Assembly: GCF_022267555.1 (NCBI RefSeq)
Contig: NZ_CP073586.1
Location: 1,116,001 to 1,180,000 of the forward strand
Reading direction: 5' to 3'
Source of the DNA: Proteiniphilum propionicum
GTDB lineage: Bacteria > Bacteroidota > Bacteroidia > Bacteroidales > Dysgonomonadaceae
Length of the DNA: 64,000 nt
The notes beneath the pieces were generated by a model. It saw nothing but the letters and a program-made list of their open reading frames with translations, was not told the origin of the DNA and did no database searches. Shown here piece after piece: positions 4,279 to 9,065 of this stretch. A program made the position numbers and the translations under genes. Position 1 is the stretch's first letter; each line of letters begins with the position of its first letter.

Positions 4279-4569
4279 TATGAATCTGTTATTTAGTTAT
4301 AAAATATTAGTTCACGGTTTTTTTTATAATACTTCAGTAAATTCCAACTTGACACCTGAGTAGTCAAACTATTCAGAACATAATGGTAAAGCTTACTACG
4401 ACTGGCCGTCAGGCGATTACGGCTGGATGCCTGAAAAAAATGTCAAAATTGGTGTTTTTAATATGCAAATATAAAAATATTTTGAAAATAATTGTTGATT
4501 CTTCATTTGAAAATGAGTCTGTTTTTAATTTATTGGCGCTATAAAACCACTTTTTTTTTTACTTTTTTA

Positions 4570-4599
4570 TTTGTATGAATAAAAAAAATCGTACATTTG
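4570..4599 (+). promoter_or_regulatory. Promoter of the pheA operon
   Basis: TTTG at 4570-4573 and TACATTTG at 4592-4599, separated by 18 bp, match the Bacteroidota -33/-7 pattern. Initiation would fall near 4606, just ahead of the leader peptide. The rest of the 4279-4797 intergenic region upstream of this is AT-rich and shows no gene. Confidence 0.7.
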
Positions 4600-4627
4600 C
4601 ATCCGTAATTCACAAAAGTAGATTATA

Positions 4628-4684
4628 GTGAACAGTTCAGTTTTTGCAATATCTTTCTGGTTTTACTTTTACTTTAGCAGGTAA
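4628..4684 (+). CDS. Aromatic-rich leader peptide of the pheA operon
   Basis: An 18-codon ORF starts at GTG and reads (M)NSSVFAISFWFYFYFSR, then TAA. Seven consecutive codons (residues 10-16) are Phe-Trp-Phe-Tyr-Phe-Tyr-Phe, and the peptide holds five Phe, two Tyr and one Trp in total. It lies about 20 nt after the predicted transcription start and ends immediately before an RNA segment able to pair with the terminator arm. This is the classical design of a translation-sensing leader peptide. An in-frame TAG at 4619 means only ATT, ATA or GTG can start it, and GTG is chosen. Expression is inferred, not shown. Confidence 0.75.
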   Translation: MNSSVFAISFWFYFYFSR

Positions 4685-4685
4685 A

Positions 4686-4774
4686 GACAGGATTTTATAT
4701 GCAAAATGAGAAGAAGTTAAATAGTCATATCAGATAAATAAGATCCTGTCGCCAACACGACGGGATTTTTTTTT
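4686..4774 (+). promoter_or_regulatory. Transcription attenuator: antiterminator and terminator arms upstream of pheA
   Basis: Segment 2, GACAGGAT (4686-4693), pairs perfectly with segment 3, ATCCTGTC (4743-4750). Segment 3, extended to ATCCTGTCG (4743-4751), can instead pair with segment 4, CGACGGGAT (4758-4766), across a 6-nt loop. This second pairing is followed by nine T (4766-4774) and makes a good intrinsic terminator. A ribosome finishing the leader peptide (stop at 4682) would cover segment 2 and allow termination. A ribosome stalled at the aromatic codons would leave segment 2 free to form the antiterminator. The mutually exclusive pairings are read directly from the sequence. Confidence 0.8.
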
Positions 4775-4797
4775 GGTTAAAAAATGAGATAAATCGT

Positions 4798-5730
4798 ATG
4801 AAGAGAGTAGCTATTCAGGGAGGTGCAGGTGCATACCACGAGATCGCGGCACGTGAGTATTTTAAGGGTGAAGAGGTGGATATTGTTCCCTGCAGCACTT
4901 TCCGTGATATTTTTATTGAGGCTTCTAAAGATCCCGCGCTGATAGGGGTAATGGCAATTGAAAACACAATAGCGGGAAGTCTTTTGCAGAATCACGATCT
5001 TTTGAAAATTAATGATCTGCAGATTGCAGGTGAGCATAAACTGCGTATTTCACATTCACTGGCGTCACTACCCGGAAGTTCAATATGCGATATTAAAGAG
5101 GTGATGTCGCACCCCATGGCGTTGATGCAATGTGAAGAGTTTCTTGATACACTTCCCGGTGTAAAAATAGTTGAGCACAGTGATACGGCCCTTGCTGCAA
5201 AAGATGTACGAGAAAAAAACATGGTCGGTACAGCTGCCATATGCAGCACCTTTGCAGCAGAAATGTACGGGTTGGAGGTTGTTGCCCGTGGTATTGAGAC
5301 AAATAAAAGGAACTTTACCCGGTTTCTTATTCTTGCACAGGGTGAGATGCTTCGAGAAGTGAAGAAGGATAATCATATCAACAAGTCGTCGATGGTTTTC
5401 ATATTGCCTCACAACGAAGGAAGCCTCTCGAAAGTACTGTCGGTGTTGTCCTTTTATGACATTAACCTAACCCGTATTCAGTCGTTGCCCATTATTGGAA
5501 GAGAGTGGGAGTATCAGTTTTACATCGACCTCACCTTTACCGATTTTTTCCGCTACCGGCAGTCAGTTGATGCTATAATGCCATTGATAAGCGGATTGAA
5601 AATACTGGGTGAGTACAGGGAGGAAAAGCATGGCACTATAGAACAAAGATCGAAGGAGAAAATGAATTATTTCGCGGTTGATTTTAAGAAGCCATTTATT
5701 CGTACAAATGAGAGAGCGAATGAGTTTTAG
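4798..5730 (+). CDS. pheA: Prephenate dehydratase
   Basis: 310 residues, monofunctional (no chorismate mutase domain). Converts prephenate to phenylpyruvate in phenylalanine synthesis. Residues 1 to about 180 form the catalytic PDT domain, starting VAIQGGAGAYHE and ending in the conserved NFTRF (Asn172-Phe176, with the catalytic Thr174). Residues of about 195-280 form an ACT domain that normally binds Phe for feedback inhibition (GSLSKVLSVLSFYDINLTRIQS). The ESRP motif of enterobacterial enzymes reads QSLP here. First gene of the aromatic operon, directly behind the attenuator. The missing mutase is supplied by the fused gene two positions downstream. Confidence 0.95.
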   Translation: MKRVAIQGGAGAYHEIAAREYFKGEEVDIVPCSTFRDIFIEASKDPALIGVMAIENTIAGSLLQNHDLLKINDLQIAGEHKLRISHSLASLPGSSICDIKEVMSHPMALMQCEEFLDTLPGVKIVEHSDTALAAKDVREKNMVGTAAICSTFAAEMYGLEVVARGIETNKRNFTRFLILAQGEMLREVKKDNHINKSSMVFILPHNEGSLSKVLSVLSFYDINLTRIQSLPIIGREWEYQFYIDLTFTDFFRYRQSVDAIMPLISGLKILGEYREEKHGTIEQRSKEKMNYFAVDFKKPFIRTNERANEF

Positions 5731-5880: not shown

Positions 5881-7053
5881 ATGAAGACAATTGAACCTGC
5901 TGAACATATAAAAACAATCGCAGAATACTATTTTTCAGTAAAACTTGCAGAGGTCGCCCGTATGAATAGCGAAGGTAAAAATGTAATAAGCCTGGCGGTG
6001 GGTGCTCCCGACAGAATGCCTTCGCAGAAAACAATAAGTAAGCTTTGTGAAGCTGCGTGCCGTCCCGATGTGCATGCTTATCAGCCTTACACGGGAATAC
6101 CCGAACTTCGTAAAGCATATGCCGATTGGTATGGCAGGATATACGGTGTGGAATTGTTTACAGATGAGGTACTCCCGTTGATAGGATCGAAAGAGGGAGT
6201 GTTGCATATTTCAATGACATTTCTTAACTACGGAGATGGGGTTTTAGTACCGAATCCAGGTTATCCTACCTATACCTCTGTGTCTAATTTGCTGAGAGCC
6301 AATGTTATTCAGTATGACCTGATGGAGGACGACAACTGGCAGCCCAATTTTGAAGCGCTGGAAAAGATGGATCTGTCGCAGGTGAAACTGATGTGGGTAA
6401 ACTATCCGAATATGCCTACCGGTGCCAACGCGTCGGCTGGGTTGTTTGAAAAGCTGGTAGCTTTTGGCAAGAGGCACTCAATAATTATTTGTCATGATAA
6501 TCCTTACAGCTTTATCCTGAATGACAAACCAATGAGCATTTTATCGGTACCTGGTGCAAAAGATATTTGCATCGAGCTCAACTCATTAAGCAAGTCGCAC
6601 AATATGTCGGGCTGGCGTATGGGAGTGCTTGCTTCCAATCCCCAATTTGTGAGATGGGTACTAAAGGAGAAAAGCAATATCGACAGCGGGCAGTTTAAGC
6701 CGATGCAACTGGCTGCCGTTGAAGCTTTGTCGAACCCTTTGGAATGGCATGCAGAGATGAATAGTATTTACGCAGGCCGCCGCTTATGGGCCGAAAAGAT
6801 ATTGGATCTGCTGCAATGCACATTCGACAAACGCCAGGTTGGGCTGTTTGTCTGGGGTAAATTGAGCGACAAGGTAGCTGACAGCGAATCCTTTATAGAT
6901 GATATCCTTTATAACGCAAGGGTATTTATCACGCCGGGATCTGTCTTCGGCAGCAACGGAGATAGATTTATACGTATCTCACTTGGTTCTTCTGAGGAGA
7001 AAATTCAGGAAGCTTATCACAGGATTAATGCTTACTTGTCAACATTGCAGTGA
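5881..7053 (+). CDS. PLP-dependent class I/II aminotransferase of the aromatic operon
   Basis: 390-residue fold-type I aminotransferase. The pyridoxal-phosphate lysine is Lys238 in SLSKSHNMSGWRMG, and NYPNMPTGA matches the substrate and cofactor-contacting NYPxNPTG segment, with Met in place of the usual Pro-preceding Asn (NMPTG). Its place between pheA and the DAHP synthase makes transamination of phenylpyruvate, hydroxyphenylpyruvate or prephenate the likely role. Aspartate or LL-diaminopimelate aminotransferase-like activity cannot be excluded from sequence alone. It follows pheA after 150 bp without a visible terminator, so it is probably co-transcribed. Confidence 0.85.
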   Translation: MKTIEPAEHIKTIAEYYFSVKLAEVARMNSEGKNVISLAVGAPDRMPSQKTISKLCEAACRPDVHAYQPYTGIPELRKAYADWYGRIYGVELFTDEVLPLIGSKEGVLHISMTFLNYGDGVLVPNPGYPTYTSVSNLLRANVIQYDLMEDDNWQPNFEALEKMDLSQVKLMWVNYPNMPTGANASAGLFEKLVAFGKRHSIIICHDNPYSFILNDKPMSILSVPGAKDICIELNSLSKSHNMSGWRMGVLASNPQFVRWVLKEKSNIDSGQFKPMQLAAVEALSNPLEWHAEMNSIYAGRRLWAEKILDLLQCTFDKRQVGLFVWGKLSDKVADSESFIDDILYNARVFITPGSVFGSNGDRFIRISLGSSEEKIQEAYHRINAYLSTLQ

Positions 7054-7206: not shown

Positions 7207-8295
7207 ATGGAGTTCGAATCAATATTATTACCGGGTATAGATGAAAAACGGCCGCTCGTGATTTCAGGACCCTGCAGCGCAGAGACGGAGGAACAGGTGA
7301 TGGTCACTGCCGGGCAACTGGCCTCAATAGGTGTTAAGATTTTCAGGGCGGGTGTTTGGAAGCCGAGGACCAAGCCTGGTGGTTTTGAAGGGGTGGGCAG
7401 CCCTGCCCTCAAATGGCTTCTGAAAGCAAAAAAGGAGACCGGCATGTATGTAGCTACCGAGGTAGCTACAGAAAAACATGTCTATGAGTCACTAAAATAT
7501 GGCGTGGATTTGTTATGGATAGGTGCACGAACCACCGCTAACCCTTTTGCAGTACAGGAGATTGCTGACACACTGCGAGGGGTGGATATACCTGTTCTGA
7601 TAAAGAATCCGGTGAACCCCGACCTGGAGCTGTGGATAGGTGCATTGGAAAGGTTGTACAATGCCGGGATAAAGCGGTTGGGAGTGATTCACAGAGGTTT
7701 CAGCACACCCGATAAAACTGTGTACCGCAATATTCCGCAGTGGCATATCCCTATTGAGTTGAAGCGACGTTATCCCGCACTTCCCATCCTGTGCGACCCG
7801 AGTCATATAGGGGGAGACCGCAACCTTATCTTTAAGCTCAGCCAGCAGGCTATGGACCTGAACTATTCAGGATTGATAATAGAATCTCACTGTTCACCTG
7901 ATGATGCATGGAGCGATAGGGCGCAACAGATAACGCCAGCAGCACTTAAGGAGGTGCTTGACAGCCTGGTCATCCGCAATACCGTGCAGACTACAGAAGA
8001 TCTCTCTGTGTTGCGAAATCAGATAGATGATCTGGACAACGAGCTATTGCAGCTGCTTGCCAAGCGGATGCGTGTATCAAGAGAGATTGGGTACTATAAG
8101 CTGGAGCACGATATGCCTATCCTGCAGACGCAGCGTTATGACCAGATCCTTACAGATCGTGCCTGCCAGGGCGAACGGATGGAGATGTCGGGCGATTTTA
8201 TAAAACAGGTACTGGAGGCTATCCACTCTGAATCGGTACGCCAGCAGATGGTGGTCATGGAAAGAGAAAAAAAGAGAAATAACAAAGTAAAATGA
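7207..8295 (+). CDS. Bifunctional DAHP synthase / chorismate mutase
   Basis: 362 residues. Positions of about 1-265 are a DAHP synthase of the KDO8P-synthase-like type (ISGPCSAETEEQ, KPRTKPGGFEG, CDPSHIGGDR), catalysing the entry step of the shikimate pathway. Positions of about 275-355 are an AroQ-type chorismate mutase (LRNQIDDLDNELLQLLAKRM). One protein thus supplies both the first and the branch-point reaction, complementing the monofunctional PheA and TyrA beside it. The last four bases overlap the tyrA start (ATGA), which indicates translational coupling. An 8-bp inverted repeat (7145-7152/7171-7178) precedes the gene; its meaning is unclear. Confidence 0.93.
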   Translation: MEFESILLPGIDEKRPLVISGPCSAETEEQVMVTAGQLASIGVKIFRAGVWKPRTKPGGFEGVGSPALKWLLKAKKETGMYVATEVATEKHVYESLKYGVDLLWIGARTTANPFAVQEIADTLRGVDIPVLIKNPVNPDLELWIGALERLYNAGIKRLGVIHRGFSTPDKTVYRNIPQWHIPIELKRRYPALPILCDPSHIGGDRNLIFKLSQQAMDLNYSGLIIESHCSPDDAWSDRAQQITPAALKEVLDSLVIRNTVQTTEDLSVLRNQIDDLDNELLQLLAKRMRVSREIGYYKLEHDMPILQTQRYDQILTDRACQGERMEMSGDFIKQVLEAIHSESVRQQMVVMEREKKRNNKVK

Positions 8296-9065
8296 AAATA
8301 TTAATTCTTGGAGCCGGCAAGATGGGGTCGTTCTTTGCCGATGTGCTCAGTTTTGAACACGAAGTGGCTGTTTTGGATACAGACCCGAAAAAACTACGGT
8401 TCATCTACAACACGCTTCGAATGACAAATCCTGAAGAAGTGCAGGAATTTGCACCCGAACTGGTTATTAATGCAGCTACGCTGAAATACACCATCGAAGC
8501 GTTTAACAACGTGTTGCCCTATTTGCCGCAAACGTGTATTTTGAGCGATATTGCATCGGTGAAAACCGGCTTGGAGGAATTTTACCTCGAACGTACCCGC
8601 CCTTATGTCTCCACTCACCCGATGTTCGGGCCTACGTTTGCCAGCCTGAGCGACCTTAGCACGCAAAGTGCCATTATTATTTCCGAATCGTCACATCTGG
8701 GGAAGGTGTTTTTCCGGGATCTGTACCGCCGGCTAAAACTGAATGTTTTTGAATATTCGTTCAGGGAGCACGATGAAACCATCGCTTACTCGCTTTCCAT
8801 CCCGTTTGCATCCACATTGGTGTTTGCATCGGTAATGAAGCATCAGGATGCGCCGGGAACCACGTTCAAAAAGCATATGAACATTGCACAGGGATTACTT
8901 TCGGAAGATGATTTTCTCTTAACGGAGATTTTGTTTAATCCATATACTCCCGATCAATTGGTAAAAATCAGGGAGAAACTGAAAGAATTACTTGCCATCA
9001 TCGTAGATAAAGACAGCGAAAAGATGAAACTGTTTTTGACCGGGGTGAGAAAGAATATTGAATAA
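8292..9065 (+). CDS. tyrA: Prephenate dehydrogenase
   Basis: 257 residues. NAD(P)-dependent oxidative decarboxylation of prephenate to 4-hydroxyphenylpyruvate in tyrosine synthesis. The N-terminus has the Rossmann glycine motif (LGAGKMGSFF) and an acidic residue at the end of strand 2 (VLDTD), favouring NAD. The substrate-site segment STHPMFGP carries the conserved His. The C-terminal half is the helical dimerisation domain. There is no ACT domain, so feedback control by Tyr is not obvious. Last gene of the operon; overlaps the preceding stop by 4 bp. Confidence 0.92.
   Translation: MKILILGAGKMGSFFADVLSFEHEVAVLDTDPKKLRFIYNTLRMTNPEEVQEFAPELVINAATLKYTIEAFNNVLPYLPQTCILSDIASVKTGLEEFYLERTRPYVSTHPMFGPTFASLSDLSTQSAIIISESSHLGKVFFRDLYRRLKLNVFEYSFREHDETIAYSLSIPFASTLVFASVMKHQDAPGTTFKKHMNIAQGLLSEDDFLLTEILFNPYTPDQLVKIREKLKELLAIIVDKDSEKMKLFLTGVRKNIE

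Follow-up and report, generated by a model that had tools for sequence, protein, structure and literature searches.

The analysed window of 64,000 nucleotides from the genome of Proteiniphilum propionicum (GCF_022267555.1, contig NZ_CP073586.1, positions 1,116,001 to 1,180,000) carries, upstream of pheA, a leader that very probably acts as a ribosome-mediated transcription attenuator reading the supply of phenylalanine and tyrosine, as judged from comparative sequence analysis. The features observed are an open reading frame (ORF) with a defined reading frame, alternative stems, the joint conservation and placement of these elements, and a match between the leader codons and the gene content of the operon. 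A preliminary description of this DNA had proposed the logic of leader-peptide attenuation, and this proposal is strongly supported by conservation, compensatory changes and placement.

The pheA operon and its leader

All features of the locus are located on the forward strand. The first gene, pheA (4798..5730; ATG at 4798), encodes prephenate dehydratase (PF00800, E 3e-56), in which the Pfam domain search matched no chorismate mutase domain. The downstream genes code for a putative class I/II PLP aminotransferase (5881..7053; PF00155), an AroF–chorismate mutase fusion (7207..8295; PF00793 and PF01817), and a TyrA-like prephenate dehydrogenase (8292..9065; PF02153, E 1.6e-6). The fusion protein is the only DAHP synthase found in the genome. 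The other PF00793 protein is KdsA, and no PF01474 protein was found.

The promoter, the 18-codon ORF, the seven aromatic codons, the mutually exclusive stems and the run of nine T listed in the preliminary description are all present at 4570-4774. The Bacteroidota-type promoter read in the sequence, TTTG-N18-TACATTTG (4570..4599), consists of TTTG at 4570-4573, an 18-nt spacer, and TACATTTG at 4592-4599; we take TAnnTTTG to be the -7 consensus of Bacteroidota. This -7 motif occurs at most 80 nt upstream in 66 of the 67 family leaders versus 10 of 129 control windows, and in 62 of the 67, TTG is additionally found 15-22 nt 5' of such a motif. The ORF for the leader peptide VNSSVFAISFWFYFYFSR (4628..4684) has 18 codons, a GTG start and a stop codon at 4682-4684; an in-frame TAG is located at 4619-4621, 5' of the GTG. 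Its candidate sensor codons 10-16 (4655..4675; TTC TGG TTT TAC TTT TAC TTT) specify Phe-Trp-Phe-Tyr-Phe-Tyr-Phe and also constitute region 1. The ORF is short and conserved, and has a cluster of codons for the operon products.

One base after the leader stop codon begins region 2, GACAGGATTTTATATG (4686..4701), the 5' arm of the antiterminator. It includes GACAGGAT at 4686-4693 and reaches past it, an extension that had gone unmentioned. A spacer of 38 nt leads to region 3, AAGATCCTGTCG (4740..4751; ATCCTGTCG at 4743-4751), which pairs either with region 2, forming the antiterminator, or with region 4, forming the terminator. Region 4, the 3' arm of the terminator, and the U-tract (4758..4774) comprise CGACGGGAT at 4758-4766 and nine T at 4766-4774, so that an intrinsic terminator is present between the leader ORF and the first gene. 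The preliminary description was also silent on a 1:2 protector stem, which the aromatic codons of region 1 may form with AGGTAAA across the stop codon of the leader. The energies predicted for the stems in isolation are: -16.9 kcal/mol (2:3); -15.4 kcal/mol (3:4); and -7.6 kcal/mol (1:2), the last stem being located on near-invariant columns of the alignment. The window sequence folds below its shuffles (z -2.3), 4 of 200 shuffles being as low.

Conservation within the Dysgonomonadaceae

PheA was found in 88 of 101 genomes of the family, and upstream DNA was examined for 70 of these. At 68 of the 70 loci, L044 included, there is a homologous leader whose end is F[YF]FYF or a close variant of it. 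At L036, the contig end cuts the leader region and the terminator is kept, while L049 is the only fully covered family locus without a leader. In the latter genome (G041), the ORF upstream of pheA ends in ...GMNLEWFKKTGLYSLTANYG, which we take to resemble the C-terminus of a group II intron maturase, and a promoter-like TATCTTTG is located close to pheA.

The family alignment comprised 67 sequences, with one duplicate (L066) left out. Standard pairs occupy 98.9% of the cells of the terminator (3:4) and 95.9% of those of the antiterminator (2:3). When the partner was slid by 1-3 columns, these values were at most 58.2% and 57.3%, respectively. Cells changed on both sides number 31 in the terminator, versus 7.7 in shuffles, and 11 in the antiterminator, versus 1.7, with none of 500 shuffles as high in either case; these shuffles take no account of relatedness among the sequences. 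Of five measures of covariation, two gave less. The terminator pairs with a double change (three) and the count of its pair types did not exceed shuffles (210 and 496 of 500 as high), and the same two measures were modest for the antiterminator (28 and 33 of 500 as high). The antiterminator pair of columns 37-114 is broken in 18 of the 67 sequences. Region 3 takes part in both stems, so that any change in it calls for two matching changes. Namely, a C at column 111 of region 3 (six sequences) is accompanied by G in both region 2 and region 4 in 6/6 cases, and a C at column 113 (three sequences) in 3/3 cases. An antiterminator that competes for the 5' arm of the terminator and displays compensatory changes is present in the family, while some distant modules fail in this respect.

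At L043, L060, L065 and L070, and at many loci of the order, the leader ORF enters or crosses region 2 and stops after it. In those run-on leaders, a terminating ribosome would sit on or past region 2, not before it.

Distribution in the order, class and phylum

An order-wide covariance-model search gave matches in at least 34 of 198 genomes. As it scored 18 candidates per genome and underestimates the spread, the loci for counting were gathered by prephenate-dehydratase searches that extended from the order to the class and on to the other classes of the phylum. Matches of the model elsewhere in the window genome (33.6 and 29.5 bits) were discarded as ordinary terminators with no aromatic leader by eye. 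The order sample included 47 of 52 genomes: the genome studied here and G013 were excluded as family members, and also outside the count were G106 (split match, seen as L099), G220 (contig end) and G146 (partial match). The class sample included 22 of 24 genomes, and that of the other classes 15 of 77.

The detector rule required a short ORF with at least six aromatic residues in eight, followed by an intrinsic terminator. The module was detected at 67 of 70 family loci. Outside the family it was detected at 39 of 47 loci from the same order, at 16 of 22 from the class outside that order, and at none of 15 from the remaining classes of the phylum. None of 154 reverse complements and none of 770 dinucleotide shuffles passed the rule, which rules out a chance origin of the module. 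Reading by eye raised the counts to 68/70 (family), 43/47 (order), and 19/22 (class); the additions were L019 in the family, L117, L119, L165 and L179 in the order, and L184, L185 and L193 in the class. Besides L049, no leader was seen at L108, L112, L125 and L174 (order) and at L144, L195 and L199 (class). Among 40 further order loci, 31 had at least one module.

Of at least 574 named contigs with a relative of the window PheA, the best 80 were considered, and an aromatic leader ORF was present at 77 of the 78 loci with enough upstream DNA. This count scored leader ORFs alone, not terminators, and shares many genomes with the main samples. The contig titles include Proteiniphilum, Fermentimonas, Petrimonas, Seramator, Dysgonomonas, and Paludibacter. 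Proteiniphilum acetatigenes DSM 18083 (L219) and Dysgonomonas hofstadii DSM 104969 (L259) each have a leader. The single miss was L226; the variant leader of L019 is invisible to this rule. Three MAGs titled Prevotella (L251, L278, L281) have PheA and leaders of Dysgonomonas type, and their titles may be wrong.

For region 2, the stretch from the last aromatic codon to the terminator was compared with 200 shuffles with regard to its complementarity to the terminator 5' arm. At most two shuffles were as good in 67/67 family, 30/46 order, 13/17 class, and 23/35 later modules; at most ten were as good in 67, 38, 14, and 28 of these modules, respectively. No good region 2 was found in L182, L194, L376, L397, and the second modules of L168 and L399. 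The sequences of regions 2 and 3 diverge (CGAGGCTT/AAGCCTCG, AGCGGGA/TCCCGCT, AAGGTGAGGC/GCCTCACCTT), while their complementarity and place are kept. The distance from the last aromatic codon to the start of the match is 9-22 nt in the family (67/67), 6-33 nt in the order, and 7-15 nt in the class. Region 2 is thus located just 3' of the putative stall codons, where, given the size of the ribosome footprint, a ribosome at the stop codon could cover it.

Amino acids sensed by the leader

The aromatic share of the ten codons ending at the last aromatic one is 76-78% in frame 0, whereas the alternative frames give 22-28%. Modules with both Phe and Tyr number 67/67 in the family, 44/46 in the order, and 17/17 in the class, and this constant pair is most likely what the sensor would read. 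The preliminary description had proposed one leader for all three aromatic amino acids. A Trp codon is indeed present in the run of the window leader, and the single DAHP synthase found, AroF, supplies Trp synthesis as well. However, the codon before FYFYF is Trp in only 21 of the 67 family leaders; within the genus (n = 30) it is Trp in 20, Gly in nine, and Arg in one. Any Trp in the run was found in 9/46 order and 7/17 class modules. The same genome also has a separate WW leader, MTNLLINGYWWRYLLLKMS, followed by a terminator and located before trpB (L213; C1:803606-803736, reverse strand; trpB named from sequence by eye). This leader is a sub-threshold match to Bacteroid-trp (44 bits versus the cut-off of 49). 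Given this inconstancy of Trp and the separate WW leader, a single sensor for Phe, Tyr and Trp is unlikely, and Trp sensing as a general property of these leaders was rejected. In the window species itself, Trp may still have an effect.

Leader codons and gene content of the operon

Together with up to 6 kb of downstream DNA, pheA was searched with the proteins of the window operon at 100 order and class loci, 99 of which make up the gene-content table (L373 was dropped because of a contig end). The second batch of these loci, consisting of further members of the families that showed split operons and one or more genomes of others, was picked before the leaders were read. An aminotransferase gene and/or aroF follows pheA at 87 loci, and all 87 leaders have Tyr in the cluster. 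A solitary pheA was found at 12 loci, as judged on 6 kb except for L370 (3.2 kb), L368 (2.8 kb) and L396 (1.2 kb). Six of these are leaderless, and the other six have a leader without Tyr in the cluster. The association of Tyr with gene content (Fisher p 1.3e-9) counts related loci, the six Tyr-free leaders coming from three families.

The Tyr-free leaders (L104, L165, L181, L367, L369, L370) display a Phe-only aromatic run, as in MTRFFTHFFFFFTQQ, MITINNSFFFFFFRSDPEKGL, and RFFFFFAFFFC. Four of the six passed the terminator rule, which L165 and L367 failed; a hairpin was seen by eye in L165. Region 2 is weakly supported in L181, L369 and L370 (9-11 of 200 shuffles as good). The leaderless loci L108, L112, L174, L144, L195 and L199, as well as L185, are absent from the table, and we therefore do not claim that every joint operon has a leader. 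No match to the aminotransferase, aroF or tyrA was found in the approximately 1.2 kb after pheA of L108 and L112.

In four split genomes (G118, G127, G207, G240), the detached aroF operon has a Phe- and Tyr-containing leader of its own. Three of these operons have the order aminotransferase–aroF–chorismate mutase–tyrA, and that of G118 starts with a tyrA-like ORF, after which comes aroF–chorismate mutase. The share of Tyr in their leaders is 0.56-0.67 versus a median of 0.5 in joint operons, of which 26/87 reach 0.55; the lean towards Tyr is only suggestive. The correspondence between codons and genes indicates that the leader codons evolve with the products of the controlled genes. The loci at which a Phe/Tyr leader precedes an aminotransferase–aroF operon, with pheA elsewhere in the genome, are L087, L091 and L098/L357; at L358 it precedes a tyrA-like–aroF operon, likewise with pheA elsewhere.

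Tandem modules

Some genomes possess two consecutive modules between the promoter and pheA, each composed of an aromatic leader ORF and its own terminator. Such tandems were found by rule at 7/47 order loci, with L132 added by eye, at 1/22 class loci and at 4/40 later loci; two more (L093, L099) were found via the covariance model and read by eye. Eleven families of the order have such tandems, as does one further family of the class. The tandem loci are L078, L079, L081, L082, L093, L097, L099, L102, L106, L118, L123, L126, L131, L132, L168, L177, L188, L276, L286, L387, L388, L398, and L399, a list in which some genomes stand under two identifiers and L276 and L286 were judged on paired leader ORFs alone. 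In one tandem family (f106; L168, L399) a convincing region 2 is absent from the second module. A tree of 43 PheA proteins, 10 of them tandem rows, requires six changes of the tandem state (5-7 in bootstraps), versus a mean of 9.1 for shuffled states, 4 of 500 of which were as low.

Two modules in series would presumably multiply their read-through. Tentatively, and with somewhat less than even confidence, we suggest that the Phe/Tyr branch in most Bacteroidia may be controlled by one ancestral bispecific leader attenuator. Its codons would have been re-tuned when the operon split (Phe only at the lone pheA; Phe and Tyr, leaning towards Tyr, at the detached aroF operon), and it would have been repeatedly doubled into two serial Phe/Tyr attenuators with a steeper or wider-range, AND-like response.

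Proposed mechanism and alternative explanations

In the mechanism that we infer for the window leader, RNA polymerase would start just after 4599 and a ribosome would translate the 18-codon leader. If charged tRNA-Phe or tRNA-Tyr were scarce, the ribosome would stall on codons 10-16 and leave region 2 (4686-4701) free to pair with region 3 before region 4 is made. No terminator would form, and pheA, the aminotransferase gene, aroF–chorismate mutase and tyrA would be transcribed. With a good supply, the ribosome would reach the stop codon at 4682-4684 and cover region 2, the 3:4 stem would form, and transcription would end in the U-tract. Without translation, the 1:2 stem would block region 2 and favour termination. 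Masked folds, with a ribosome on the leader, agree with this model as long as region 4 is absent. When the full leader was folded at equilibrium and codons 12 or 16 were masked by a ribosome, the terminator remained the preferred structure, and the model therefore depends on kinetics during transcription. The 2:3 stem is also favoured in the unmasked leader as long as region 4 has not been synthesised, so that these folds do not assign a decisive role to the 1:2 protector.

The peptide itself might act by nascent-chain arrest, with FYFYF jamming the exit tunnel and sensing a small molecule or the state of translation instead of tRNA charging. The ending FYFYF-x-[RK]-stop hardly varies within the family, and third positions are constrained as well, TTT being used at codons 12, 14, and 16 in 65, 65, and 66 of the 67 leaders; the 1:2 stem may, however, also explain the latter constraint. 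Across the order and class, the order of Phe and Tyr is scrambled (FYYFWFF, FFYFFYF, GYYFYF), yet the aromatic density and the distance to region 2 persist, and the leaders of solitary pheA genes drop Tyr from the run. These observations make arrest by the peptide very improbable.

We consider a function of the terminated leader as a trans-acting small RNA, either in addition to attenuation or in its place, equally improbable. Termination would be expected to release a distinct leader RNA of about 170 nt, parts of region 2 and of the spacer are conserved, and the Trp leader RNA of Sinorhizobium reportedly acts in this way; the conserved parts are, however, already explained by an attenuator.

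Least plausible of all, to the point of being nearly negligible, is that the region is a U-rich unstructured spacer before the terminator, for instance a factor loading site, in which base composition alone gave rise to the aromatic codons. In its favour, TTT and TAY codons are rich in U and A, region 2 is a possible pairing partner of region 1, and Ser codons are not rare in the run (52/670 family residues). Against it, the reading-frame test rejects a base-composition artefact, the equally U-rich codons for Leu and Ile are scarce (Leu is outside the 12 commonest residues in every set), both TTT/TTC and TAT/TAC are used, and the loss of Tyr at solitary pheA is left unexplained.

Comparison with known systems

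None of the families in Rfam 15, T-box and riboswitches included, was matched at the gathering score in the window or in 20 leader-bearing loci, and the identity of the leader with a T-box, a riboswitch or a known Rfam leader was rejected on these grounds. Phe_leader (RF01859) reached 18 bits in the window versus a gathering score of 55, and the 14 matches obtained at 4400-4900 with E of up to 10 did not include Bacteroid-trp (RF01692). Matches to rnk_leader (E 0.019) and Thr_leader (E 0.056) are below gathering and rest mainly on the terminator hairpin.

The pheA and trp leader attenuators of proteobacteria combine a short ORF rich in cognate codons with 1:2, 2:3 and 3:4 stems and a U-tract terminator. 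The window leader is like them in these elements, its 1:2 stem being a prediction, and in its location before biosynthetic genes. In contrast to them, it has mixed Phe and Tyr codons and a Bacteroidota-type promoter, its operon adds aroF and tyrA, and no sequence match connects it with these leaders. The ilvGMEDA and thr leaders of enteric bacteria each read more than one amino acid, matching the operon products; the window leader would share this multiple specificity but concerns other amino acids in another phylum.

The preliminary description knew of no standard annotated family for such a leader in Bacteroidota. This holds for Rfam 15 at the gathering score, but a structured 5' element without an Rfam hit was reported in 2021 upstream of pheA in Flavobacterium psychrophilum, and leader-peptide attenuation was named, in outline, for amino-acid operons of this bacterium (PMC9723704). 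That element precedes the same gene in the same phylum, whereas the accessible part of the account contains no leader peptide sequence, Phe and Tyr specificity, class-wide distribution, solitary-pheA contrast or tandems (PMC9723704). Bacteroid-trp RNA (RF01692), as presented in the available part of its description by Weinberg 2010 (PMC2864571), is from the same phylum; the Bacteroid-trp-like leader found here differs from the window leader in having Trp codons and preceding another operon. Leader-like sORFs in long 5' UTRs of B. thetaiotaomicron are also mentioned in the accessible text of one study (PMC7366714). According to the summary description of the uORFC-13-1 motif, an upstream ORF with one or more Phe codons and a terminator precede aroF of Acholeplasma (PMC8632094). 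By this description the motif resembles the window leader in its upstream ORF and terminator ahead of aroF, but it belongs to another phylum and is described with at least one Phe codon only. The mgtCBR operon of Salmonella has tandem attenuators with two leader ORFs, responding, by the available account, to ATP and proline (PMC3641672). Both this arrangement and the Bacteroidia tandems are serial; the mgtCBR signals differ from each other, whereas both leaders of the Bacteroidia tandems are rich in Phe and Tyr.

A survey from 2010 states in its accessible portion that no leader-peptide system was known outside Proteobacteria and Actinobacteria before its own case from Firmicutes (PMC2965389). 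In the literature searched, consisting of titles and abstract openings and largely outside subscription journals, we found no Phe and Tyr leader, class-wide spread or tandem form of this kind. With our results, leader-peptide attenuation of the classical type extends to the aromatic operon in a large bacterial class, for which only a Trp leader was found in Rfam. Whole and split operons form a natural contrast that points to co-evolution of codons and genes, and the leaders suggest ready-made Phe- and Tyr-responsive switches for Bacteroidia. The proposed mechanism is a textbook one with good support, and two features are unusual: a codon content that follows gene content and the occurrence of serial doubles.
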